64,000 nucleotides of DNA, taken from positions 1 through 64,000 of the forward strand of contig NZ_BJDK01000004.1 in assembly GCF_005405105.1 (NCBI RefSeq), read 5' to 3'. Position 1 is the first letter of the stretch. Each line of letters starts with the position of its first letter. This DNA is from Lactiplantibacillus dongliensis (GTDB taxonomy: Bacteria; Bacillota; Bacilli; Lactobacillales; Lactobacillaceae). The translations under genes and the position numbers were made by a program. Positions 48,971 through 63,678 of the stretch are shown one piece after another. The notes under the pieces were generated by a model. That model worked only from the letters and a program-made list of their open reading frames with translations. It was not told where the DNA came from and searched no databases.

Positions 48971-50323
48971 GTGAAAGTAATTAAATTTGGTGGCAGTTCG
49001 CTTGCCAGCAGTACCCAACTACAAAAAGTACTGTCGATCGTCAAAGCTGACGACCAACGGAGAGTTGTGATTGTTTCCGCGCCAGGTAAACGGTTCGCTG
49101 GTGACACCAAAGTGACCGATTTGCTCATCCAGTATGCTCGTCAAACGATTCACCGTCAAGACACGACGGCCATCGTGGACACGATCATCGACCGTTATGC
49201 CGAAATTGGCCACGGTTTTGGGGTGCCTGATGATCAACTTGAACCCATTTTTGACATTATTCGGAACTTACCGAAACAACCTTATGCGGATAACACCTAT
49301 TTAATGGCCGCCTTTAAAGCTCATGGTGAACGGCTCAACGCCCAATTAGTGGCCGCTGTCTTCCAAAAGTCAGGCTTAAATGCCCGCTACTTGGACCCCA
49401 AAGAGGCCGGTATGGTCGTTACCGATGTCCCCGACGACGCCCAGATTATCGATAGTAGTTATCAAAATCTGGCTAAATGGGCTAACAGCGATAAAATCTT
49501 AGTCATTCCAGGGTTCTTTGCTTATAACCGCAATGGCCAGATTTGTACGTTCTCCCGTGGTGGTTCCGATATTACCGGCGCCATTCTCGCACGCGGCGTC
49601 AATGCCGACCGTTATGAAAACTTTACTGACGTTGACGCGATCTATGCCGTCAACCCATCATTAGTCGCACAACCAGCCGCGATCGCCGAGATGACTTTCC
49701 GGGAAATGCGGGAACTTTCTTACGCTGGCTTCTCCGTATTTCACGACGAAGCCTTGATCCCTGCTATCCAAGGTAACATCACGGTGAATGTTAAGAACAC
49801 GAACCATCCAGAAGCTCCTGGGACCTTAATTCAGTCAACTAAGGCCACCAGTACAAAATATCCCGTTACTGGGATTGCGAGCTCCTCAAGCTTTTGTTCC
49901 TTATACTTACGAAAATATCTCTTAAACAAAGAAGTTGGTTTTGGCCGCAAAATCTTAACGATTTTAGAAGACCATCATGTCAGTTATGAACACATGCCAT
50001 CTGGGATCGATGACTTGACGATTATCTTTGATGAACATCAACTGACCCCCGAACTGGAAAAGGAACTGACGGCTGAAATTTCTGCCGCCGTTCATCCTGA
50101 CGAGCTCTACTTCACCCACGATTATTCCATCTTAATGATTGTTGGTGAAAATATGCGTAACCGGGTCGGAATCATGTCCCGTGCCGCCACGGCTTTAGCT
50201 GATAATAACATTAAGTTGATTATGGTCAACCAAGGGGCCTCCGAAATTTCCATTATGTTCGGAGTACACGACCGCGATGCTGATCAAGCAGTCATTGCCT
50301 TGTATAATGAATTTTTTAAATAA
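48971..50323 (+). CDS. lysC: Aspartate kinase
   Basis: 450 aa. N-terminal KFGGSSLA binds the substrate phosphates, FSRGGSDITGA lies in the ATP/aspartate site, and two C-terminal ACT domains (from about residue 300, and LIMVGENMRNRVGIMSRAATALADNNI) provide feedback control. It makes aspartyl phosphate for the lysine, threonine and methionine branch and for diaminopimelate. GAGGAG before GTG 48971. It stands alone, without other pathway genes, and is one of only three plus-strand host genes in the window. Confidence 0.95.
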   Translation: MKVIKFGGSSLASSTQLQKVLSIVKADDQRRVVIVSAPGKRFAGDTKVTDLLIQYARQTIHRQDTTAIVDTIIDRYAEIGHGFGVPDDQLEPIFDIIRNLPKQPYADNTYLMAAFKAHGERLNAQLVAAVFQKSGLNARYLDPKEAGMVVTDVPDDAQIIDSSYQNLAKWANSDKILVIPGFFAYNRNGQICTFSRGGSDITGAILARGVNADRYENFTDVDAIYAVNPSLVAQPAAIAEMTFREMRELSYAGFSVFHDEALIPAIQGNITVNVKNTNHPEAPGTLIQSTKATSTKYPVTGIASSSSFCSLYLRKYLLNKEVGFGRKILTILEDHHVSYEHMPSGIDDLTIIFDEHQLTPELEKELTAEISAAVHPDELYFTHDYSILMIVGENMRNRVGIMSRAATALADNNIKLIMVNQGASEISIMFGVHDRDADQAVIALYNEFFK

Positions 50324-50379: not shown

Positions 50380-50420
50380 ATTGTCGTCTCTAGCGTAAGC
50401 CAATTGTCTTGTTTAACTTA

Positions 50421-50573
50421 CCACTCTGGTTGGCCCAGAATCGGCTGGAACGTGGTGGCCGCGTTTGTGAGCCGAAGTACGGTCTCACAAGCCGGGCTTT
50501 ATCTAAGTCGCAGAACCACGACTAAGATAAACGACACCACTGAGCCAATTCTGGTCCGCCCGTCGTTAATGAC
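50421..50573 (+). repeat. Dispersed structured repeat, copy A (about 153 bp)
   Basis: The outer stem GGCCCAGAATCGGCT (50432-50446) pairs with AGCCAATTCTGGTCC (50543-50557). The inner stem GTGGTG (50452) pairs with CACCAC (50535). Hairpin 1 is GTGAGCC/GGTCTCAC (467-473/481-488 of 50 kb). Hairpin 2 is ATCTAAGTCG/CGACTAAGAT (501-510/519-528). Copies B and C keep this fold with different stem bases. A small ORF across it is only a shadow. It sits in the gap after lysC. Confidence 0.85.
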
Positions 50574-50744
50574 CGGATGATTGTAAATGATTCATGATTT
50601 ACATTTAACCAATTACCTTAATTGAGACGTTGCTTTCAAAATGACTCATAGTGTCCAACGTTTTAAAAACTAACCGGTAGATGGTAATCTCTACTAACAA
50701 CAAACGTGCTAAATATTACTACCCTATCTGGGCCATAAAATTAG
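50574..50744. other. Gene-free remainder of the lysC-HTH gap
   Basis: No gene was recognised. At 50582-50603 two arms TGTAAAT and ATTTACA flank an 8-bp centre, an operator-like inverted repeat with no assignable regulator. Nothing else stands out. Confidence 0.5.
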
Positions 50745-50987
50745 CTAGTCAACTGTCGTCCCTAAGGCTATTGCATAGTTTTGTAACATCGCAGTTGTTG
50801 GCACAGTATCTAACCGTTCAAAAGCTAAAAATTCAGTTGTTGTCATCTGCATCCGCTGTGCCATTGTTCCTACTGGAAGCTGGTGTGTAATTCGAAATGC
50901 ATTTAACTGTGCTAGCTGTCTAATTCGTTTCAACTCATCCGGACTGATGGTTGTTAATGTTGCTTCAAAGTCATCCCAAGTTGTCAT
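50745..50987 (-). CDS. Small helix-turn-helix (XRE/HigA-like) protein, no toxin partner seen
   Basis: 80 aa. The central part (RIRQLAQLNAFRITHQLPVGTMAQRMQMTTTEFLAFERLDT) resembles the XRE-like helix-turn-helix of HigA-type antitoxins, which usually follow a RelE/HigB toxin gene. No toxin-like ORF precedes it: the 130 bp upstream on the minus strand contain only a 38-codon hydrophobic frame starting at GTG. No strong ribosome site is seen. It may be an orphan remnant of a toxin-antitoxin unit or a small regulator. Confidence 0.5.
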   Translation of the reverse strand: MTTWDDFEATLTTISPDELKRIRQLAQLNAFRITHQLPVGTMAQRMQMTTTEFLAFERLDTVPTTAMLQNYAIALGTTVD

Positions 50988-51119
50988 TTTTAAACACCAG
51001 CCAATTACGAGCCGACGAGAGTGGCAAATTCCATCTAACTAGAATGACAATCAAAAAGGCGATGCCACCACAATTAAGCAGCGTCACCGTCTTGGTTAGC
51101 TATTCTGATATTGAGTCGC

Positions 51120-51956
51120 TTAGTTTTCAACCTGCTGATTACCAAACCACTTCTTATTAATCTTCGCTAACGTTCCATTTGCCTTTAACGTCTTCAAACC
51201 AGCGTTAATCTTGGCTTTCATCGTCGTATCACCTTTACGCAAACCAACCGCAAAGTCTTCGGAGTCGAAAGTCCCTTGCGATTCTGTATAAGCGGCGGAA
51301 TTGGCTTCATGCTTGATGTAATAGTTCGCATAGACGCTATCAATCAATAACCCCTTAATCCGACCAGCATTCAAGTCTAAGAAAGCATTCGTGAAGGTGT
51401 CATATTGAATCGGCGTTTTCCTGGCAATCTTGTCCTTAAGTAACTTCGGATTATTCTCTAATGATTCGTAACCAGAAGACCCGGATTGCGCCCCTAAAGT
51501 CTTGCCGGTCATATCATTAAATGAATTAATGTGATTCTTCTTTAACGAAACCAAGACTTGCTTGTTCTTCAGATACGTATTACTGAACGCCACCACTTTT
51601 TCCCGTTGCGGGTTCTTCGTATACCCATTCCAAATCAAATCGATGGTGCCGTTACGCAGTTCGGTCGCATTCATCGACCAGTCAATGGTTTGGAAGCTAA
51701 CCTTGACGCCATACAGCTTAAACACCGCGCGCGCCAGGTCAATATCATAGCCGACTAATTTACCGGACTTTTCACGAAATCCCATGGGAACGAAGCTATC
51801 ATCCAGCCCCACAACGACGGTGCCGTGCTTCTTGATTTTCGTCCATGTATCTTGAGTATCGGCGCGGGTCGTGACATTCTCACAGCCACTAAGCGTTGTC
51901 GTCAAGCCGACTAAAACTAAGCTGAGTAGCAATAATGATATTAAGCGTTTCTTCAT
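51120..51956 (-). CDS. Amino-acid ABC transporter substrate-binding lipoprotein
   Basis: 278 aa, signal peptide with lipobox TLSGC (Cys25). The periplasmic-binding-protein family 3 domain shows GTVVVGLDDSFVPMGFREKSGKLVGYDIDLARAV, TELRNGTIDLIWNGYT and FAVGLRKGDT. It captures a polar amino acid and delivers it to the permease encoded upstream. Third gene of the T-box-controlled operon. The substrate is uncertain; a T-box-controlled histidine-type transporter is one possibility. Confidence 0.92.
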   Translation of the reverse strand: MKKRLISLLLLSLVLVGLTTTLSGCENVTTRADTQDTWTKIKKHGTVVVGLDDSFVPMGFREKSGKLVGYDIDLARAVFKLYGVKVSFQTIDWSMNATELRNGTIDLIWNGYTKNPQREKVVAFSNTYLKNKQVLVSLKKNHINSFNDMTGKTLGAQSGSSGYESLENNPKLLKDKIARKTPIQYDTFTNAFLDLNAGRIKGLLIDSVYANYYIKHEANSAAYTESQGTFDSEDFAVGLRKGDTTMKAKINAGLKTLKANGTLAKINKKWFGNQQVEN

Positions 51957-51967
51957 CCTGCCACCCC

Positions 51968-52609
51968 CTATTTGGTCTGGTTCGGTTCAACGTGTAGCAT
52001 CTCATCAGCAATATTCTTCGCAAAGGTCAAATCATGGCTAACCACAATTTGCGTCATTCCATCCGCCTTTAACCCAAGGATCAGCTTTTCAACTTCTTGC
52101 CGTAAATTTGGATCCAACGCCGAGGTTGGTTCGTCATAACATAAAACGTTAGGCTTCATCGCTAAGGCCCGCGCAATCGCGACCCGTTGTTGTTGCCCAC
52201 CGGAGAGTTGGTAAGGGTACTGGTCCCCGTGGTCACCGAGATTCAAGCGGTCCAATAATTGTTGGGCAGCAGCTTTAGCATCATCGGCACTTTCTTTTAA
52301 GACCATCGTGGGCGCCAACGTGATGTTTTGTAACACTGTTAAGTGTGGGAATAATTCAAAGTTCTGGAACACGACCCCAATCACACTGTCATTCGTCCGG
52401 TTCGTATAGGGATCAAAAGCTTGGCCGTCCACTAAGAATTGACCGCTATCCACTTTTTCTAAACCAGTAATGCAACGTAATAAGGTCGTCTTCCCAGCCC
52501 CAGAAGGACCGACGATACTTAGAATCTCACCGTCTTTAACCGTTAAGTTTAAATCTTTAATGATGGTCCGGTTACCAAAACTTTTGGTCATATTTTTAAG
52601 TTCTAACAT
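51968..52609 (-). CDS. Amino-acid ABC transporter ATP-binding protein
   Basis: 213 aa: Walker A GPSGAGKTT, signature LSGGQQQR, Walker B VLCYDEPTSALD and the switch His in VVSHDL. It belongs to the polar-amino-acid (GlnQ/HisP) type. It is somewhat short (about 240 aa is usual), lacking the C-terminal extension. 12 bp after the permease gene and 11 bp before the binding-protein gene. Confidence 0.94.
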   Translation of the reverse strand: MLELKNMTKSFGNRTIIKDLNLTVKDGEILSIVGPSGAGKTTLLRCITGLEKVDSGQFLVDGQAFDPYTNRTNDSVIGVVFQNFELFPHLTVLQNITLAPTMVLKESADDAKAAAQQLLDRLNLGDHGDQYPYQLSGGQQQRVAIARALAMKPNVLCYDEPTSALDPNLRQEVEKLILGLKADGMTQIVVSHDLTFAKNIADEMLHVEPNQTK

Positions 52610-52621
52610 CGGCGTTCCTCC

Positions 52622-53263
52622 TTATTTCCAGTAACTATAACGTTTTTCAATCTGTCGTAATACGAACGTTGTGACGGCGGTCAACAATAAGTAGAGCACC
52701 GCAACTAAGACTAATGGGACTAACGTGACATCCCGCGCCGTAGCTACGTTGCCGGCTCGTAGTAAGTCGCCTAGGCCGATAACATAAACTAACGACGAGT
52801 CTTTAATCAGGTTAATCACTTCGTTACCAACCGATGGCAATACGATCTTGACCACTTGTGGAATCACAATCTTACGAATGGTTTGCGCGTAACTCAACCG
52901 CAATACCCGGGCACTTTCATACTGGCCATTATCAATCGATTGTAAGCCACCACGGAAGATTTCAGCGAAGTAAGCCGCGTAGTTTAAGATAAAGGCGAAT
53001 AACGCCGCTTCATACCGCGGAAAGACCAGCCCAATCAGTGGCAAGCCATAAAAGACGAAAATCAATTGTAGTAGTAACGGCGTCCCCCGCATCAACCAAA
53101 CGTAAAAATTAATTAACCATTGCAAGGGTTTGATATTCGAAATTAAGCCTAAACTTAAAATCAACCCTAACGGTAACGACCCCACGAGCGTCCATAAGAA
53201 AATCTGTAGCGTCATGCCGGCGCCGGATAATAATGATGGCAAAATCTCAGTAATATAATGCAT
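52622..53263 (-). CDS. Amino-acid ABC transporter permease
   Basis: 213 aa with about five membrane spans and the EAA loop (ESARVLRLSYAQTIRKIVIPQ) that contacts the ATPase; HisM/GlnP type (YVWLMRGTPLLLQLIFVFYGLP). First gene behind the tandem T-box leader. GGGAGG before ATG 53263. Confidence 0.93.
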   Translation of the reverse strand: MHYITEILPSLLSGAGMTLQIFLWTLVGSLPLGLILSLGLISNIKPLQWLINFYVWLMRGTPLLLQLIFVFYGLPLIGLVFPRYEAALFAFILNYAAYFAEIFRGGLQSIDNGQYESARVLRLSYAQTIRKIVIPQVVKIVLPSVGNEVINLIKDSSLVYVIGLGDLLRAGNVATARDVTLVPLVLVAVLYLLLTAVTTFVLRQIEKRYSYWK

Positions 53264-53289
53264 AAGCGTTCCCTCCCAAATTCGTTAAC

Positions 53290-53672
53290 AGCAACAAAAA
53301 AGTCCCCTTGAGACATAATCTCAAGAGGACGATTCGACGCGGTGCCACCTCAGTTCGCAGCAGCTTCACAGCTACTGCCTCAGGGAGTTTAGTGATAATA
53401 AAAAAATCGTCCCTAGGTCTAAAACCTAAGAGGACGATTAATATCGCGGTGCCACCTCATCTTCATCAATTACTCACGTAACTGAACTCAGCGAGTTTAT
53501 CACTAAACTCCGCCGCTAACGAGGCCAACCGGAACAGCTTACTTCATTCAGCCATTCAACTCACAGATGTGGTTCGTCATTTAAACGTGATTGGCTTTCC
53601 AGCACCGCCAATTCTCTGTCCAACGTCTAATCAACTACTCTTCTGTTCCCTGTCTTTTTTAATGTTGCTCTC
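53290..53672 (-). promoter_or_regulatory. Tandem T-box leader of the amino-acid ABC transporter
   Basis: Two T-box sequences (AGGTGGCACCGCG on the minus strand) occur at 53445-53457 and 53338-53350. Each is followed by a terminator (about 53401-53437 and 53295-53330) with a T-run. Only the first has a preceding Stem I region (53515-53660, with AGAGAA and GGTG-like distal elements). The second module has just a short hairpin before its T-box. A His codon (CAC near 53575) is a candidate specifier, with low certainty. GGAGTTTAGTGATAA at 53384-53398 is perfectly complementary to 53497-53511. Confidence 0.85.
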
Positions 53673-53701
53673 ATAATAACCAAAAACCGGTTACTCGTCA
53701 A
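53673..53701 (-). promoter_or_regulatory. Promoter of the ABC transporter operon
   Basis: On the minus strand: TTGACG (53696-53701), 17 bp, TATTAT (53673-53678), starting directly after the minD stop at 53709 with no clear terminator between. Some read-through from minD is possible. Confidence 0.85.
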
Positions 53702-53708
53702 GCGCTTT

Positions 53709-54515
53709 TTACTTATTTCGGTGAAAAATACTAGTAATTCGCGACCAAACGCCGACCTTTTGATGCTCAATGTTCATCAATGGCACGGTTTCGCCTTCGA
53801 TTCGCCGGGCAATATTTCGATAACCCTGGGCCGCTGGATTCTTAGGATCTAAGACAACCGGTTCCCCGTTATTGGATGTCCGAATAACGGCATCGTCATC
53901 GACCACGATTCCTAATAGATCAATGGATAAGTGATGGGTAATTTCATCAATGTCCATAGTTTCGCCATCTTGCATCATCCGTTGCCGGATCCGATTAATA
54001 ACTAATTTAGGGGCTTCAGCTAATGGGTATTGTTCCAATAAACCGACAACCCGATCCGCATCGCGAATTGCTGAAATTTCAGGTGTTGAAACGATAATGG
54101 CCGCATCGGCACCCGCAATCGCATTCATAAAGCCTTGTTCAATCCCAGCTGGGCAATCTAATAAGACATAGTCAAAGTCCGGCTTAAGTTCATCGACCAC
54201 GGCCCGAACTTGATCCGGATTCAATGAATTCTTATCCGCGTTTTGAGCAGCTGGCAATAAGTAAAGTAAGTCATCAAAGCGCTTATCTTTAACTAAAGCT
54301 TGCCGTAATTGCGCGCGATTTTCAACGACATCCACAATATCATAGAGGATGCGGTTATCGAGGCCTAAAATGACATCTAAGTTGCGTAAGCCGATATCAA
54401 GGTCAACTAAGCAGACTTTTTTGCCCATTAAGGCCAAAGCCGTCCCTAAGTTGGCGGTCGTCGTTGTTTTACCGACACCCCCTTTACCAGAGGTGACGAC
54501 AATTGCTTTTCCCAT
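53709..54515 (-). CDS. minD: Septum-site determining ATPase MinD
   Basis: 268 aa, deviant Walker A SGKGGVGKTT, VDLDIGLRNLD, LLDCPAGIEQGF and a C-terminal amphipathic membrane-targeting helix (VGVWSRITSIFHRNK). It positions the MinC inhibitor at the membrane. ATG 54515 overlaps the minC TGA stop by one base (TGATG), with GGAGG inside minC. Confidence 0.96.
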   Translation of the reverse strand: MGKAIVVTSGKGGVGKTTTTANLGTALALMGKKVCLVDLDIGLRNLDVILGLDNRILYDIVDVVENRAQLRQALVKDKRFDDLLYLLPAAQNADKNSLNPDQVRAVVDELKPDFDYVLLDCPAGIEQGFMNAIAGADAAIIVSTPEISAIRDADRVVGLLEQYPLAEAPKLVINRIRQRMMQDGETMDIDEITHHLSIDLLGIVVDDDAVIRTSNNGEPVVLDPKNPAAQGYRNIARRIEGETVPLMNIEHQKVGVWSRITSIFHRNK

Positions 54516-55183
54516 CAAATATGTCCTCCATTCTGAATAAATAATTTAGGTCGTACTCGTTTTAATTGATTTAAAGGTTGGTAATCTAAAGCTTGAATGT
54601 CATTGATATACACGACATTCGACCCGGTTGCCGTTTTGGCTGGATCTACTAACTCTAACAGTTCACCGACTCGTACCCGGGGAACCGTCGTCAAATCACT
54701 GACAATGACGGCCTCATTATGATCAGGATACCCTGCTTCTAAGGCGCCGGCAACGTCACCCATCACAAAGATACTGCCAGTTGCCCGTAGCACCCCGCCT
54801 TCATGAATCTTACCAAAGAACAGCACATCTCCAGTAATCGTCACGACTTGACCATTACGAATAATCTGATTAATTAGATGGACGGTATCGCGTTCAATCA
54901 TCGTCATGGCATCCGCCGTCAAAATCACGTCCGCGGCTAACTTATGAATGCTAAACAACGCATAACGCTGAATCAACTGCGTCACTTGTTGCGTTTGTTC
55001 GGCCGTCAATAGCCGGCCCTCCGTACTAATATCAAATGCAATCTGTTTGTCAGTCGTATTGTCAACTTGCAACCGATCGAGCAAGGTCTTTAAATCGACC
55101 ATAATTGTCTCGAAACTGGCGGCTTGCCGAAAGATTAATTCATAGCCATCATTACTGGCCTTTAAAACCACACTTTGCTGCAT
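54515..55183 (-). CDS. minC: Septum-site determining protein MinC
   Basis: 222 aa. The N-terminal FtsZ-inhibiting domain (VVLKASNDGYELIFRQAASFETIMVDLKTLLDRL) is followed by the beta-helical C-terminal domain (NGQVVTITGDVLFFGKIHEGGVLRATGSIFVMGDVAGALEAG). The start is taken as ATG 55183 behind AAAGGAA; GTG 55201 lies upstream of that site. Coupled to minD. Confidence 0.95.
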   Translation of the reverse strand: MQQSVVLKASNDGYELIFRQAASFETIMVDLKTLLDRLQVDNTTDKQIAFDISTEGRLLTAEQTQQVTQLIQRYALFSIHKLAADVILTADAMTMIERDTVHLINQIIRNGQVVTITGDVLFFGKIHEGGVLRATGSIFVMGDVAGALEAGYPDHNEAVIVSDLTTVPRVRVGELLELVDPAKTATGSNVVYINDIQALDYQPLNQLKRVRPKLFIQNGGHI

Positions 55184-55204
55184 GTCTGAATTCCTTTCCA
55201 CCGA

Positions 55205-55729
55205 CTAACTCACTTTAAGATATAACTGCCGTACCGGATAATACAAAATCACAAACAACGCCAAGTTGACGGCAATCGTTGGGCCTAACGTATAGACCGC
55301 AAAGTCGGCTAAATTACTCGTCATTACTTTACCAATCAAATACCAAATATACACAAATGCTTCGACGATCGTTAAATTAATAATATAGACCATTAGCATC
55401 GTCAAGAAGTTCAAATCAAGCCACGGCTTAACCTGACGACTCAAGTAAACCACTAACGGTAGGGCCACCATATAGACACCCAAAATTCCCGTATAGTACC
55501 AATCAAACACTAGCCCCGCAAAAGCTGACCAGATACCGATTGATAAATCATTACGGTCATCCAAAAAGACGGCAAAAATGATCCATAGTAAGACTAAATG
55601 TAAGACACTGGAATAAGGATACTTAAATAAATGCGCTGCAAACACATTTGACAAGGACCCATCTAAAAACAAGGCTAAAAATAACCCGACTGGGAAGATA
55701 ATTCTTAAACGTGATACTCTCACAATCAT
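55205..55729 (-). CDS. mreD: Rod shape-determining protein MreD
   Basis: 174 aa, five to six membrane spans (LRIIFPVGLFLALFLDGSLSNVF..., LVLLWIIFAVFLDD), basic start. Part of the elongasome with MreB, MreC and RodZ. GGGAGG is only three bases before ATG 55729, so GTG two codons on could be the real start. Confidence 0.93.
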   Translation of the reverse strand: MIVRVSRLRIIFPVGLFLALFLDGSLSNVFAAHLFKYPYSSVLHLVLLWIIFAVFLDDRNDLSIGIWSAFAGLVFDWYYTGILGVYMVALPLVVYLSRQVKPWLDLNFLTMLMVYIINLTIVEAFVYIWYLIGKVMTSNLADFAVYTLGPTIAVNLALFVILYYPVRQLYLKVS

Positions 55730-55738
55730 TAGCCTCCC

Positions 55739-56584
55739 TTATTGTACCGCTACCGTAACCACGGTTAAGTCAGTTAGGTTAGCTGCTGGTGTAATTTCAA
55801 TTTCGGAAGCCAGCCCGTAATCATCTTGTTTGACCTTGGCAACAGTCCCGACGTATAAGCCTTTAGGCGTCACACCGCCCAAGCCACTCGTCACCACTTT
55901 GTCACCTTTTTTGATCTTCGTCTTAGACGTTACGGAACCCATTTCGATCAAATTAGTGCTCTTGTCATAGCCCGTCACAATCCCATTAACGGTACTACCG
56001 GCCTTGTTCGTCACTTGAATCGCAAATTTATCGGCTGACGAACTCGTGCTCGAAATCAATTCAACCTTAGAATTAGTCTGATTAACTTCAACCACCCGAC
56101 CAATCAACCCTGATTGTGACATGACTGGCATATTCTTCTTAATCCCAGCCGTGGCCCCTTTAGAAATCACCAACTGGTTCATCCATGAAGAAGGTGTCCG
56201 CGTTAAAACATTGGCGGTCACTGCCGTGTAAGCCGTCAAAGAATTGTTTAACTTTAATTCTTTACGTAACTGTTTGTTTTCAGCAGTCGCGGTTTGCGCG
56301 TTGACCTTAGCTTGTGCTAATTGGTCAACTTGCTTTTTGAGTTTTTGGTTTTCTTGATACGTATTCAGGAGATCCGAAACCGAATTAGACGCCCCTTGCA
56401 AGCCATTCACCGGCCAAGCAATCACCCGGTCAACCGCACCAGCGACATCGTTCCCAAACTGCTGAAGCAATGGCGGGGTCGACTTTTTATTACGGACCGC
56501 AACTGAAACGCTCATCAAGCCGAAACTGATTATTAACACAATGATCACGATAACCAATTTACGGTTGAAAAAAAACTTTTGCAT
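55739..56584 (-). CDS. mreC: Rod shape-determining protein MreC
   Basis: 281 aa. One N-terminal membrane span (LVIVIIVLIISFGLMSVSVAV), a coiled coil (about 65-105) and an extracellular beta-barrel domain with VISKGATAGIKKNMPVMSQSGLIGRVVEVN and VVTSGLGGVTPKGLYVG. It scaffolds the peptidoglycan elongation complex. It follows mreB after a 70-bp gap holding a hairpin. Confidence 0.95.
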   Translation of the reverse strand: MQKFFFNRKLVIVIIVLIISFGLMSVSVAVRNKKSTPPLLQQFGNDVAGAVDRVIAWPVNGLQGASNSVSDLLNTYQENQKLKKQVDQLAQAKVNAQTATAENKQLRKELKLNNSLTAYTAVTANVLTRTPSSWMNQLVISKGATAGIKKNMPVMSQSGLIGRVVEVNQTNSKVELISSTSSSADKFAIQVTNKAGSTVNGIVTGYDKSTNLIEMGSVTSKTKIKKGDKVVTSGLGGVTPKGLYVGTVAKVKQDDYGLASEIEITPAANLTDLTVVTVAVQ

Positions 56585-56624
56585 ACTGAACCCCCGGTCG
56601 AAAATTCAATTATTTAACAATAAA

Positions 56625-56648
56625 TAAGCGGGAAGTCATCTTCCCGCT
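56625..56648 (-). terminator. Intercistronic hairpin between mreB and mreC
   Basis: AGCGGGAAG (56627-56635) pairs with CTTCCCGCT (56640-56648) across a 4-base loop, followed on the minus strand by TTATTTATTG rather than a clean T-run. It could be a partial terminator or an RNA-processing/stability element that sets mreB above mreCD-minCD. Confidence 0.55.
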
Positions 56649-56654
56649 CACCTG

Positions 56655-57668
56655 TTATCGCTTTTTCATAACATCGATGCTCTTGAGTGATTCCCCAGTC
56701 CCAACGGCCACACAATCAAGGGGTTCGTTAGCAATAAATACGGGTACTTTCGTCGCATCAGCAATGACTTCGGAAAGATTCTTTAATAAGGCGCCACCAC
56801 CGGTCAAGACAATCCCATGGTCAATCACGTCAGACGCGATTTCAGGGGAAGTTTCTTCCAAGGTTTCCTTAATTGCCGAAATGATTTCTGAGACGATTTC
56901 TTGAATCGCTTCAGCGACATCGACTGCTGAAATTTCAACTGTTTTTGGTAAACCGGATAATAAGTCCCGGCCACGAATGGTTGAGCTTTCAATGTCTTTA
57001 GCAGCTTCAAGCGAAGCTGAGCCAACATCGATCTTTAATTGTTCGGCCGTCCGTTCACCAATTAGTAAGTTAAACTTTTGCCGAACATGATAGATGATCG
57101 AGTCATCGATCTTATCACCAGCCATCCGGATTGACCGACTCGACACAATCCCACCTAAGGAAATTGTAGCCACATCAGTCGTCCCGCCACCAATATCAAC
57201 AACCATGCTACCAGTTGGATCCATGACCGGCAAACCGGCCCCAATCGCTGCGGCAAATGGTTCTTCAATGACATAAGCATCCCGGGCGCCGGCAACTCGA
57301 GTCGCATCAATCACGGCTCGTTTTTCGACTTCGGTAACGCCGCTTGGTACACAAACCATGACATAAGGCTTACCATTAGAACGGCCTAATGTCTTTTGAA
57401 TAAAGTATTTCATCATAGCAACGGTGGTATCGTAATCCGCAATGACCCCATCTTTCATTGGTCGAATCGCCACGATACTTGCTGGCGTTCTCCCAATCAT
57501 ATCCCGTGCATCTGAACCAACGGATACGATTTCACCAGTCTTCGTGTTCTTCGCAACTACAGATGGTTCTCGTAGCACGATTCCCTTGCCGTCAACGTAC
57601 ACAATTGTGTTGGCAGTACCGAGATCGATCCCGATATTCTTTGTCCCAAATCCGAACACTACATTCAT
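56655..57668 (-). CDS. mreB: Rod shape-determining actin homologue MreB
   Basis: 337 aa actin fold: phosphate 1 [13 protein letters not shown], connect and phosphate 2 [17 protein letters not shown], adenosine [11 protein letters not shown]. It guides lateral wall synthesis. First of mreBCD-minCD. An extended -10 promoter (TGC-TATAAT, TATAAT at 57718-57723) lies about 50 bp before ATG 57668. Confidence 0.97.
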
Positions 57669-57717
57669 CCCTTCATCATAAACATTTTAATTTTTTATAT
57701 TAGTCATAATAGTTAGT

Positions 57718-57723
57718 ATTATA
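57718..57723 (-). promoter_or_regulatory. -10 box of the mreBCD-minCD promoter
   Basis: Perfect TATAAT on the minus strand, preceded by TGC (extended -10); no good -35 at 17 bp. It lies in the 211-bp gap between radC and mreB. Confidence 0.7.
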
Positions 57724-57879
57724 GCATAATAGCCCGGCATAAAAAATCTGCCTGAATCCTAGCATACCGTAATATATTAAAAAATACAGTTCCACTATTT
57801 AACTTAGATAAAATTTAACAAAAAACGCGATTAAGCGGATTATTAATCCGTCCTAACCCCGTTATTTTACCACATTCTT

Positions 57880-58521
57880 TTACGATTCGATATTACAATT
57901 CAACAACCCTTGCTCCGCAAAACTAAAGTAATCGGTTTCACCAACCACAAAACTATCCAAAAGTGGTATACCCAATAACTCACCACAGTCTTGTAGCCGC
58001 TTGGTAAAGGCCGCATCCCGTTTCGACGGGGTCGCGTCCCCGCTCGGATGATTATGGGCAATCACCACGCGAGCCGTATTGGTTAGTAAGGCCGCCTGAA
58101 AAAGCTCCCGCGGATGAACCGGGCAGGCATTCAGCGTCCCCTGAAAGATCACTTGGCGTTTCACAATCTGATTCTTCGTATCTAAGCATAACAATAAGAG
58201 TTGTTCTTGCCCCAGACCAGCAAAATCATGTTGGAGTTGTGCGCCAGTCTGCTCACTACCATAAATTTGGCCTAATCGGACCCGCGGTTGTTGCTGCAAA
58301 AGTTGCCCGCAACGAATCGCCATTAACAAACTATTCCAAAGCGGATTAGGATTAACCTGTTCCGACCACTCATGCATCTGTGCTAACGGATAGCTCTGCT
58401 CAAAAGCCTGCGCCGCTTCATCCGCCGCACTGGGCGTCATAAAATCACCGAAAAAACGTTGGATCAAGTGCTGAATCTGATCCAGCTGATTATCACTCGT
58501 GCTCGTTACTAATAAACTCAT
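57880..58521 (-). CDS. radC: RadC family JAB1/MPN domain protein
   Basis: 213 aa. The C-terminal JAB metalloprotease-like motif is intact: VVIAHNHPSGDATPSKRD (HxH-x7-SxxD type). The N-terminal helix-hairpin-helix region is shorter than in most RadC proteins. Its molecular function is unproven despite the name. The start is ATG 58521, preceded by GGGAGG; the TTG at 58542 is upstream of that site. It follows folC by about 38 bp. Confidence 0.92.
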   Translation of the reverse strand: MSLLVTSTSDNQLDQIQHLIQRFFGDFMTPSAADEAAQAFEQSYPLAQMHEWSEQVNPNPLWNSLLMAIRCGQLLQQQPRVRLGQIYGSEQTGAQLQHDFAGLGQEQLLLLCLDTKNQIVKRQVIFQGTLNACPVHPRELFQAALLTNTARVVIAHNHPSGDATPSKRDAAFTKRLQDCGELLGIPLLDSFVVGETDYFSFAEQGLLNCNIES

Positions 58522-58559
58522 CGAAATTTCCTCCCTACTCAAGAGGCAACTCCGTAAAG

Positions 58560-59879
58560 CTAATCCGTTTCCGTTTTAAAATATGCCCGCACATCCGAAA
58601 TAAAGTACAGTGACCCCGTCAATAAGATGATATCGTCACTCGACATTTCGCTAGTGACCTGCACTAACGCTGACTGCCAATCATCAAAGACGGGCGCTGA
58701 CATTCCGGCTGGCAATTCAGCTTCCAGCGTATCTGGAGCGGTCACCTGCCGCGTATTTGGCCCGGCAAAGCGTGTTAGTAACAAGCGCACATTTGGCAAT
58801 TTAGCCAGCGTTTGAATCATTTGGGCATGTTGCTTGTCCGCTAAGACTGCCAAGATCAGGTACACCGTTTGTTGACCGAAACGCTGCTTTAAAGTCGCCG
58901 CTAATTCAGTCATTGCCGGTTCATTGTGCGCGCCATCGATCACAATCAGCGGTTCGTCATTCAACCGTTCCAACCGACCGGGCCACTGTGTCTGCGCCAA
59001 GCCTTGTCGGACATCCCGTGCTTGAATCGGGGTGGCCTGCAATTGATGATAAGTCAAATAAGCCGCAATCGCCACCGCCGCGTTGTCCACTTGATAGTCG
59101 CCTAGTAACGGCGTTGTTAAGTCCTTAAAATGCTGACTAATCCCATCAAAGTTAAATCGCTCCTGCCAACCTTTAGGCGGTAAGAGCTTCGTTGTGAAAT
59201 CCGCTCCTAGTGTCAGTAACGGTGCTTGTTGGTCTTTAGCCGTGGCCACCATGACGGCTTGCGCTTCAGCTGGTAATTTACCGACAACCACCGGGACGTT
59301 TGGCTTAATAATCCCCGCTTTTTGGGTCGCAATCGCCGTTAACGTCCGACCAAGAATCTGCATATGATCGTAACCAATCGTTGTAATCACACTGACTTGC
59401 GGCGTAAAAACATTCGTCGAATCGTATAAGCCGCCTAAACCAACTTCAATCACGGCCACATCGATTGGCTGCGTGGCAAAGTATGTGAACATCATCGCGG
59501 TGATGATTTCAAATTCAGTGGGTCCGCCTGTCGGCAATTCAGCGTCTAACTTAGCAACAACTGGTTCAATCTGTTGGACTAACGCCACTAAATCAACGTC
59601 ACTAATCGGGATGCCATCGACGCTAATACGTTCATTGAACCGGGTAATAAACGGTGAGGTAAAGGTCCCCACCGTCAACCCATCGGCCATCAACAAATCC
59701 CGCAAATCCGCGACCGTTGAGCCTTTGCCATTCGTACCGGCAACATGAATCCCATGGACTTTTAATTGTGGATCACCTAATTCTTTTAAGAAACGCCGCA
59801 TCCGATCAAGGGTCGGAATCTTTTTAAACTTTGTTCGGCCATGGATAAACGCCAAAGCCTGATCATAATCTTGAATCAC
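58560..59879 (-). CDS. folC: Bifunctional folylpolyglutamate / dihydrofolate synthase
   Basis: 439 aa Mur-ligase fold: HVAGTNGKGST (P-loop), FTSPFITRFNERI, TTIGYDHMQILG and IDGAHNEPAM. It adds glutamate to folates in the cytosol. GTG 59879 with GAGAGGAG. The upstream gap contains the paired repeats B and C. Confidence 0.94.
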   Translation of the reverse strand: MIQDYDQALAFIHGRTKFKKIPTLDRMRRFLKELGDPQLKVHGIHVAGTNGKGSTVADLRDLLMADGLTVGTFTSPFITRFNERISVDGIPISDVDLVALVQQIEPVVAKLDAELPTGGPTEFEIITAMMFTYFATQPIDVAVIEVGLGGLYDSTNVFTPQVSVITTIGYDHMQILGRTLTAIATQKAGIIKPNVPVVVGKLPAEAQAVMVATAKDQQAPLLTLGADFTTKLLPPKGWQERFNFDGISQHFKDLTTPLLGDYQVDNAAVAIAAYLTYHQLQATPIQARDVRQGLAQTQWPGRLERLNDEPLIVIDGAHNEPAMTELAATLKQRFGQQTVYLILAVLADKQHAQMIQTLAKLPNVRLLLTRFAGPNTRQVTAPDTLEAELPAGMSAPVFDDWQSALVQVTSEMSSDDIILLTGSLYFISDVRAYFKTETD

Positions 59880-59915
59880 GTTGGTGGTACTCCTCTCTTA
59901 TGAGCTGGAAATTTG

Positions 59916-60075
59916 CCGCTCCGGGTCGACTGGATTTGATGCTGGAACGTGGTGGCCGCGTTTATGAGCCAAAAAGCGGTCTCATAAGCCGGGCTTTGAC
60001 TAGGCCGGGGATAATTCACCCCAACCAAGTCAAACGACACCACTGAGCATCATCCAGGCGCCCCTGCGCTAATGA
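59916..60075 (+). repeat. Dispersed structured repeat, copy B
   Basis: Same plan as copy A. The outer stem CTGGATTTGATGCT (59930-59943) pairs with AGCATCATCCAG (60046-60057, with a 2-nt bulge). Hairpin 1 is ATGAG/CTCAT; hairpin 2 is TTTGACTAGG with CCAAGTCAAA plus an inner GGGG/CCCC. GGAACGTGGTGGCCGCGTTT and AAACGACACCACTGAGC are shared with copy A (one base differs). Stem bases change on both sides together. Confidence 0.85.
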
Positions 60076-60311
60076 CTGTCTGTTCTTTAAAACTAGCATG
60101 TGAGTTAAAAAATAATCTAACTACTTAACAACGATTTTTCCAATAATAAGTCTGTTTCCTATTTTAGCCATTTCAAACCAACTACGCTACTCTCAATCAC
60201 AACATTTTGATAGACACTACTTTTGGTGCTAGTTAAAATGGTCGCCTGCCAGTTGGTTGCTAAAACGCTCAGCTAAACTAACAATTTGAACTGTTTATAA
60301 ATAATCACCCA
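60076..60311. other. Gene-free spacer between repeat copies B and C
   Basis: No ORF, RNA or clear regulatory signal was recognised. It forms the loop between the two inverted repeats. Confidence 0.5.
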
Positions 60312-60467
60312 ATTAACGTCGGGCGGGCCAGCATTGGCTAAGTGGTGTCGTTTGACTTAGTTGAGTGACCTCTACTCAGCTTAGTCAAAGCCCGGCTTAT
60401 GAGACCGCCCTTCGGCTCATAAACGCGGCCACCACGTTCCAGCCGATGCTGGCCCAACCAGAGTGAC
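60312..60467 (-). repeat. Dispersed structured repeat, copy C (inverted relative to B)
   Basis: Read on the minus strand it matches copy A: CACTCTGGTTGG flank, outer stem GGGCCAGCATCGGCT with AGCCAATGCTGGCCC (plus coordinates 60441-60455 and 60325-60339), ATGAGCC/GGTCTCAT hairpin, and a second hairpin with TTTGACTAAG/CTAAGTCAAA arms. Opposite orientation to copy B, 236 bp away. Confidence 0.85.
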
Positions 60468-60549
60468 AACTCAATCCAACCTTAAGCGTAGCCAGACTGA
60501 CTGACATCACAGATGCTTTAAAAACGTGGACTACTGGCTTCAATGTACA

Positions 60550-63289: not shown

Positions 63290-63678
63290 GGGTACTAAAA
63301 AATCCATTCGTGCTAGTAATTGGATTACTAGGACGAATGGATTCGCGGTACCACCTAATTTTAAAGAGTGGTCTGAAAGCCGGGAGCTACCGAGCACCGC
63401 CTAGCTAACTGGTGATGCGGCGGTTTTTCCGCATTAGCAGTTGGCGTAGCGCGCACAGGTTGCTGGCTTTCAGAGCACGTTTCGGCAAATTTGCCAAAAC
63501 CTCTCTACACTTAAACATTATTGTTAACGAACGGCGCATCCGTCCGGTCAGCCCTACTGCTTTCAGGCTAACAGCTCACAAGGTACCTTCACCTAACCAC
63601 CGGCAAAAACTTCCAGCACCGTTTTCTCTCTAAAACCGGTCAGTTAAGTTACTCACTTGCTCATCGCTTGAATGTTCC
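63290..63678 (-). promoter_or_regulatory. T-box leader of valS (tRNA-Val riboswitch)
   Basis: The T-box AGGTGGTACCGCG lies at 63344-63356. The terminator hairpin (AATCCATTCGT-CTAGTAAT with ATTACTAG-ACGAATGGATT) occupies 63301-63343, followed by T's on the minus strand. About 300 nt of Stem I/II/III region lie upstream. It includes a GC-rich hairpin with AACTGCTAATGCGG and CCGC-GCAT-AGTT arms (63398-63443), which makes this leader longer than that of alaS. Confidence 0.92.

Follow-up and report, generated by a model that had tools for sequence, protein, structure and literature searches.

The window analysed here, a 64,000-nucleotide stretch of the genome of Lactiplantibacillus dongliensis, holds in its intergenic gaps three copies (A, B and C) of a dispersed repeat. 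We assign this repeat, at a probability of roughly 0.7, to a family of miniature inverted-repeat transposable elements (MITEs) of lactobacilli which has an IS982-type partner in this genus and needs its folded DNA for propagation. The initial annotation had described three copies sharing two words, and both words were found to be exact in all of them: AACGTGGTGGCCGC is identical at 50449(+), 59946(+) and 60425(-), and AAACGACACCACT at 50529(+), 60032(+) and 60341(-). The variants of the outer stem and of hairpin 1, with changes on both paired sides, were essentially as described. The proposed size of about 155 bp corresponds to a real branched unit, but the element as a whole is larger: this unit makes up half of it, and the inverted second unit and the element ends had been missed.

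The complete element is about 400 bp long, contains no gene and consists of a terminal inverted repeat, the unit, an AT-rich spacer, a diverged inverted unit and a terminal repeat; a complete copy begins with ACGCTTGGTGCTAGTTG and closes with the reverse complement of ACGCTTGGTGCTAGTTG. Alignment of 16 of the first 30 loci extended far past 155 bp, with 14 sharing nearly the whole second half and two (L003 and L013) only part of it. A covariance model, the building of which the initial annotation had suggested, was made from 32 copies of the window's genome, G000 (A, B, C and 29 others), and this model, R1, found further copies in Lactiplantibacillus genomes. Read in reverse, the second half is a diverged copy of the unit, which R1, trained on first units only, detects in reversed orientation at about 48-102 bits in G000, its sister genome G017, G002, G009, G013 and G001. 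In 220 kb of G000 (C1:1-120000 and C7:1-100000) 47 units remained after removal of mirror-image hits. Among the 19 neighbouring pairs less than 500 bp apart, 16 were arranged tail to tail (+-) and 3 in tandem, so that 32 of the 47 units sit in tail-to-tail pairs. At G000 C1:37380-37650 a second unit has been lost from an element whose orthologue in G017 is complete. Open reading frames of at least 70 aa were absent from 29 of the 30 best-scoring G000 copies when edge overlaps of up to 60 bp were tolerated, the remaining copy (L025) being crossed by a 98-aa frame. Folded as single-stranded DNA (ssDNA), the complete element in L022 reached a z of -9.5, the predicted structure comprising two branched arms and paired ends. 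By eye, a third type of unit, with one more hairpin (CTGCAGACC..GGTCTGCAG), was recognised as the inverted partner in many G001 copies (L067, L070, L071) and also occurs in G000 (C1:96304-96484). Inverted unit pairs with long spacers of about 270-420 bp were noticed in other species of the genus (L055, L058, L059, L042, L068).

The terminal repeat was found at 181 places with at most 2 mismatches in 17, compared with 1 place for the reversed control. Requiring both ends within 4 mismatches each, we collected 54 distinct elements from G000, G017, G002 and G009, of which 47 measured 388-408 bp and seven were shorter (154-357 bp). Target duplications of 7-12 bp with at most one mismatch flanked 30 of the 54 elements, compared with 0.3% of 5,000 permuted flanks; their length was 7 bp in 7 elements, 8 in 8, 9 in 11, 10 in 2, 11 in 1 and 12 in 1. 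A count of duplications of fixed length had been poor because the lengths vary, and was replaced by this variable-length count on more elements. Furthermore, G017 lacks two elements of G000:C1 (3047-3453 and 74590-74988) at the corresponding syntenic positions. At the 74590 site, G017 presents a clean empty site with an uninterrupted flank and a single copy of the duplicated AATCAAGT. Short non-coding elements with terminal inverted repeats, target duplication, insertion polymorphism and, as described below, ends shared with an autonomous insertion sequence (IS) are what defines MITEs, and each of these features was found.

A search of G000 for the transposase domain DDE_Tnp_1 returned 7 places. 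Four of these loci carry the MITE end within 3 mismatches in 16, L306 and L312 on both sides of the gene, and the reversed-pattern control gave 0 at all 7. The ends of the IS982 family match those of the MITE in 13-14 of 16 bases. L310 contains an intact gene of 299 aa that scored 190.2 bits with the NCBIfam IS982 model (cut-off 130) and matched Pfam DDE_Tnp_1_3/DDE_Tnp_1; the reading frames of the other three end-bearing loci are interrupted. Ends of the same class (ACGCGTAGTGCTAGTT, ACGCGTTGTGCTAGTT and near variants) also occur on IS982 elements of two Levilactobacillus brevis plasmids and one Lentilactobacillus hilgardii plasmid, that is, in 3 of 4 examined; the fourth, of Lactiplantibacillus plantarum, had no such ends within the 260 bp searched on each side. 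IS982 produces target duplications of variable length, as does the repeat. Judging from the matching ends, the MITE is probably moved in trans by an IS982 transposase in this genus. IS256 was considered as a partner and rejected, with no match in G000 or G017. The window itself contains, at 526-891, a fragment of a DDE_Tnp_1 transposase (L307) without MITE-type ends.

As the initial annotation had anticipated, further copies are present in related genomes: R1 matches 19 of the 21 genomes of the genus, G018 and G019 having none, with at least 142 places each in G000 and G017, 127 in G001 and 86 in G009. With copy C as query, blastn placed 40 hits including C itself in G000 at E<=5.2e-42 (40 of 281 candidates scored). 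Extrapolation from the 220 kb gives about 660 units in 3.1 Mb, or about 550 when the window's sparser 3 per 64 kb are added, and thus repeats would make up about 3% of the genome's DNA. In the family sample R1 matched at least 47 of 201 genomes and at least 10 of 40 genera, a lower bound given that the best 14 places per genome were passed through strict filters. With equally strict filters, the order sample yielded matches in at least 23 of 395 genomes, all within the same family, which we take to be Lactobacillaceae. R1 was positive in 7 of 37 named genomes, namely Levilactobacillus wangkuiensis, L. andaensis and Ca. L. faecigallinarum, Lapidilactobacillus bayanensis and L. gannanensis, Lacticaseibacillus yichunensis and Companilactobacillus nuruki. 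It had no match in the other 30, including Enterococcus faecalis, Pediococcus pentosaceus, Weissella, Leuconostoc, Lactococcus garvieae, Streptococcus infantis, Bacillus inaquosorum and Levilactobacillus suantsaii. A distant blastn search of plasmid and phage collections with one complete element gave no match (records near the window's genome were possibly excluded), and an exact 23-letter pattern gave 0 matches in viral contigs. In G144, a genome of genus g4, 3 of 7 copies share about 420-460 bp and the same inverted-pair plan with other ends (~GRTTCTTTCTTAAATT, by eye), which implies a different transposase for these elements, as far as ends can indicate it. Possible duplications of 8-12 bp were seen by eye at G144 elements (L262, L264, L265, L267).

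The proposal that the fold is kept through covariation proved real, and far stronger on 67 units than three copies could show. In an alignment of 32 copies that was not fitted to any fold, the consensus comprises 47 pairs, both sides having changed in 12, and the junction letters of the branched fold are conserved. A larger alignment comprises 67 distinct units from 33 genomes and covers all three unit types (first, second and third); standard pairs fill 93.6% of its 3063 paired cells, compared with 65.8% in shuffled and 34-47% in slid alignments. Changes on both sides affect 42 of the 47 pairs in 812 cells (shuffled 215), and the covariation score is 0.662 versus 0.153 shuffled and at most 0.120 slid. 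This larger alignment is fitted to the model and leans towards the fold; the unfitted 32-copy alignment also shows covariation. Moreover, 8 of 12 orthologous G000/G017 unit pairs carry 0 compensated and 14 single-side changes. Most of the compared fixed copies therefore decay without compensation, which implies that the fold is renewed in spreading lineages. Such decay in place would be more readily reconciled with a need for the fold in propagation than with a function for the host at every site.

We thus propose that, in this genus, an IS982-family transposase works on the terminal repeats and that insertion, mostly between genes, duplicates 7-12 bp. The two units would fold into branched arms upon a base formed by the paired ends, and this fold would be maintained mainly by Watson-Crick to Watson-Crick changes in propagating lineages. 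The folded DNA, either a single strand during replication or a cruciform, would be needed for propagation rather than for a service to the host at each locus. Several results weigh against this proposal. Past mobility is deduced from sequence and no transposition was observed; 24 of the 54 two-ended elements lack a duplication by the rule used, and at the 3047 site the flanks align but the target letters of G017 differ. The ends of MITE and IS are not identical, with differences at 2-3 of 16 bases. The four end-bearing IS loci contain no unit, and therefore the MITE interior is not a deletion derivative of the IS. The G144 copies carry another terminal repeat, which excludes IS982 as the partner of the family at large. 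In L022, the first unit has its outer stem paired otherwise in the best ssDNA fold than in the consensus. Further pair types in the 67 units numbered 124 versus 116.2 shuffled, a value reached in 16 of 500 shuffles, and the remaining 4 of the 12 orthologous pairs hold 10 compensated and 21 single-side changes. Finally, when the count includes all 47 predicted pairs, G-U is commoner than A-C in each of the four alignments tallied, A1 to A4 (136 vs 9, 186 vs 121, 233 vs 128 and 79 vs 18).

The last tally was judged to be spoiled by pairs that are G-U throughout. In A1, 126 of the 136 G-U fall in four predicted pairs, which are U-G or G-U in 31 or 32 of 32 copies and may be true wobble pairs or simply unpaired. 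The count was accordingly restricted to pairs with a Watson-Crick consensus. This left 10 G-U and 9 A-C in A1, which is unfitted, and 33 G-U, 72 A-C and 36 other mismatches in the fitted alignment of 67 units; in 46 clusters over 43 pairs (four pair columns dropped) there were 1811 Watson-Crick, 51 A-C, 19 G-U and 22 other. The A-C excess could be read as G-U on the opposite strand, a further point to set against the proposal. A functional RNA is expected to tolerate G-U on its own strand, and 12 tRNAs gave 22 G-U and 0 A-C, a comparison biased by ARAGORN, which draws accepted pairs only. Because G-U is no commoner than A-C where pairs vary, the DNA reading is favoured, and a DNA rather than an RNA fold is, as far as pair statistics can tell, probable, not proven. 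The initial annotation had also suggested a structured RNA, which would be a cis-regulatory leader or a multi-copy small RNA gene. The strong covariation and the branched fold with its conserved junction letters would suit such an RNA, as would the few pairs that are G-U in nearly every copy and with which G-U outnumbers A-C. However, the flanking genes of the 30 best-scoring G000 copies fall randomly into the four orientation classes (8/8/7/7). Rfam, searched at gathering and permissive thresholds, had no match at A, B, C or the units in nine further loci, and the terminal repeats, the duplications and the clean empty site also argue against an RNA gene. The structured RNA is thus not supported, and we consider it improbable. 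The alternative suggestion of a mobile hairpin element with a DNA fold that matters fared better: mobility is backed by the terminal inverted repeats and target duplications, by the two insertions that the sister genome lacks and by matching IS982-family ends, and a role of the DNA fold is likely, the support for it being indirect.

The covariation could also be of mutational origin, with hairpin arms copied from each other through template switching at quasi-palindromes or exchange between copies, and the fold without a role. Consistent with this, the varying pairs are nearly all Watson-Crick with G-U no commoner than A-C, the orthologues G000 C1:37418 and G017 C20:35033 differ by four compensated pairs and 0 single-side changes, as if by subfamily exchange, and G000 and G017 hold different versions at locus B. 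Conversely, the eight orthologous pairs mentioned above changed in an uncompensated manner only, the outer stem, which encloses both hairpins, covaries as fully as the hairpins (10 of 10 pairs in helix 2), and the junction motifs remain conserved. This origin appears unlikely, if still a serious contender. An element of the REP/REPIN type, moved on folded single-stranded DNA by a REP-associated tyrosine (Y1) transposase, would share the inverted doublets of palindromic units with compensatory changes, as REPINs are described in PMC3116915. The inverted doublet is present here, but the Y1 transposase domain (Y1_Tnp, PF01797) has no match in 8 of the 21 genomes of the genus, among them G000 with 0 as well as G001 and G009, and all 8 hold copies. 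G018 and G019 possess Y1_Tnp yet contain no copies. The target duplications, and the terminal repeats with their IS982 matches, also speak against it. For G000 this explanation is already contradicted unless the enzyme was recently lost, and we give it hardly any credence. Beyond the MITE family proposed here, the unit pair might be an ancient replicating module in its own right, a device of folded DNA required for propagation, that spread through many genera of lactobacilli and acquired different terminal repeats and DDE transposases, IS982-type here and one for another end type in g4. This idea is speculative and rather doubtful; if true, it would describe a transposon kept by the shape of its DNA and intermediate between MITEs of the cut-and-paste kind and REPINs or similar systems of folded DNA.

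R1 matched the window at E<=0.001 at A, B and C and nowhere else (Table 1). As judged from their alignments, most of the second unit has been lost from elements A and C, and B consists of a single unit that belongs to another subfamily. The tail of element A scored 58.0 against the second unit of the complete element in L022 (maximum of 300 shuffles 30.6), its right terminal repeat, which ends at 50707, has 4 mismatches in 17, and copy A (50415-50573) folded as ssDNA gave z = -6.0. In copy B neither a second unit nor a terminal repeat was detected, the tail scoring 15.0 against the second unit with a shuffle mean of 16.1; copies similar to B occur in G017, G001 and G009. The terminal repeat of element C at 60219 has 3 mismatches in 17, and its site in G017 is not a clean empty site, with a remnant of the element ends of about 26 bp. 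The copy B site in G017 (window 59880-60145 versus L077 2080-2360) holds a different unit version; a 429-column stretch around B aligns at 75%, the next stretch at 94%. The difference at locus B may reflect independent insertion, exchange between copies or fast change, which are indistinguishable here.

Table 1. Copies of the repeat in the window.
Feature	Coordinates	Strand	Remarks
Element A (decayed)	50391..50707	+	Left terminal repeat, unit, spacer, second-unit remnant, right terminal repeat; left end approximate
Branched unit (domain 1) of copy A	50416..50570	+	cmsearch with R1, 173.0 bits
Copy B, lone branched unit, another subfamily	59911..60073	+	R1 139.0 bits
Element C	60219..60489	-	Both terminal repeats recognisable; second unit reduced to outer stem; aligned to complete element in L022
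Branched unit (domain 1) of copy C	60312..60471	-	R1 181.8 bits

Near the copies lies an aspartate-kinase-like gene with AA_kinase and ACT domains (48971-50323), and B and C are flanked by a Mur-ligase-type (folC-like) gene and valS. The window also contains two T-box leaders (Rfam RF00230), at 53427-53659 (-) with 115 bits and 63326-63673 (-) with 112 bits, one placed, by position, upstream of an amino-acid ABC transporter operon and the other at the start of valS.

The repeat resembles bacterial MITEs such as QMITE2 of Coxiella, which makes duplications of 7-9 bp, and RUP of pneumococcus in being short and non-coding, with terminal inverted repeats, target duplications and ends shared with a host IS (PMC10969869). 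In contrast to these MITEs, its interior is an inverted pair of homologous branched units that covary across genera and are absent from the four IS loci. IS982 itself, despite its similar ends, is about 1 kb long, carries a transposase gene and has no unit. With REPINs and BIMEs the repeat shares the non-coding inverted doublet of structured units, the compensatory changes and hundreds of copies (PMC3116915), but its units are branched and about 155 bp long, whereas REPs measure 20-40 bp according to PMC3733652; terminal repeats and duplications set it apart as well. BOX, RUP and SPRITE of Streptococcus pneumoniae are likewise folded intergenic repeats, BOX being modular and BOX and RUP having paired ends (PMC3049150). 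They differ from the present repeat in its inverted-pair architecture and cross-genus covariation, and the one Streptococcus genome searched (S. infantis) had 0 R1 matches. EFAR of Enterococcus faecalis is a structured intergenic repeat of Lactobacillales of about 170 bp; it is set apart here by 0 R1 matches in one E. faecalis genome (G564), not by comparison with its sequence.

In agreement with the initial annotation, which knew no named family, neither Rfam nor a literature search yielded a described counterpart; the search found no description of this repeat in a coverage outside of which most subscription papers lie. Lactobacillus johnsonii was the sole Lactobacillus found in the available parts of PMC2267715 and PMC1590033. 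The repeat is thus a MITE family whose interior is of a new kind: two branched units, inverted relative to each other, that have been kept through covariation from genus to genus. Its hundreds of copies in G000 are undescribed as far as searched. Strong covariation without a preference for G-U at the varying pairs makes it possible to test clearly whether, in a transposon that a DDE transposase moves, a DNA fold can be the trait under selection. For RNA-discovery pipelines the repeat is also a warning: a dispersed repeat of bacteria may covary strongly without being RNA.

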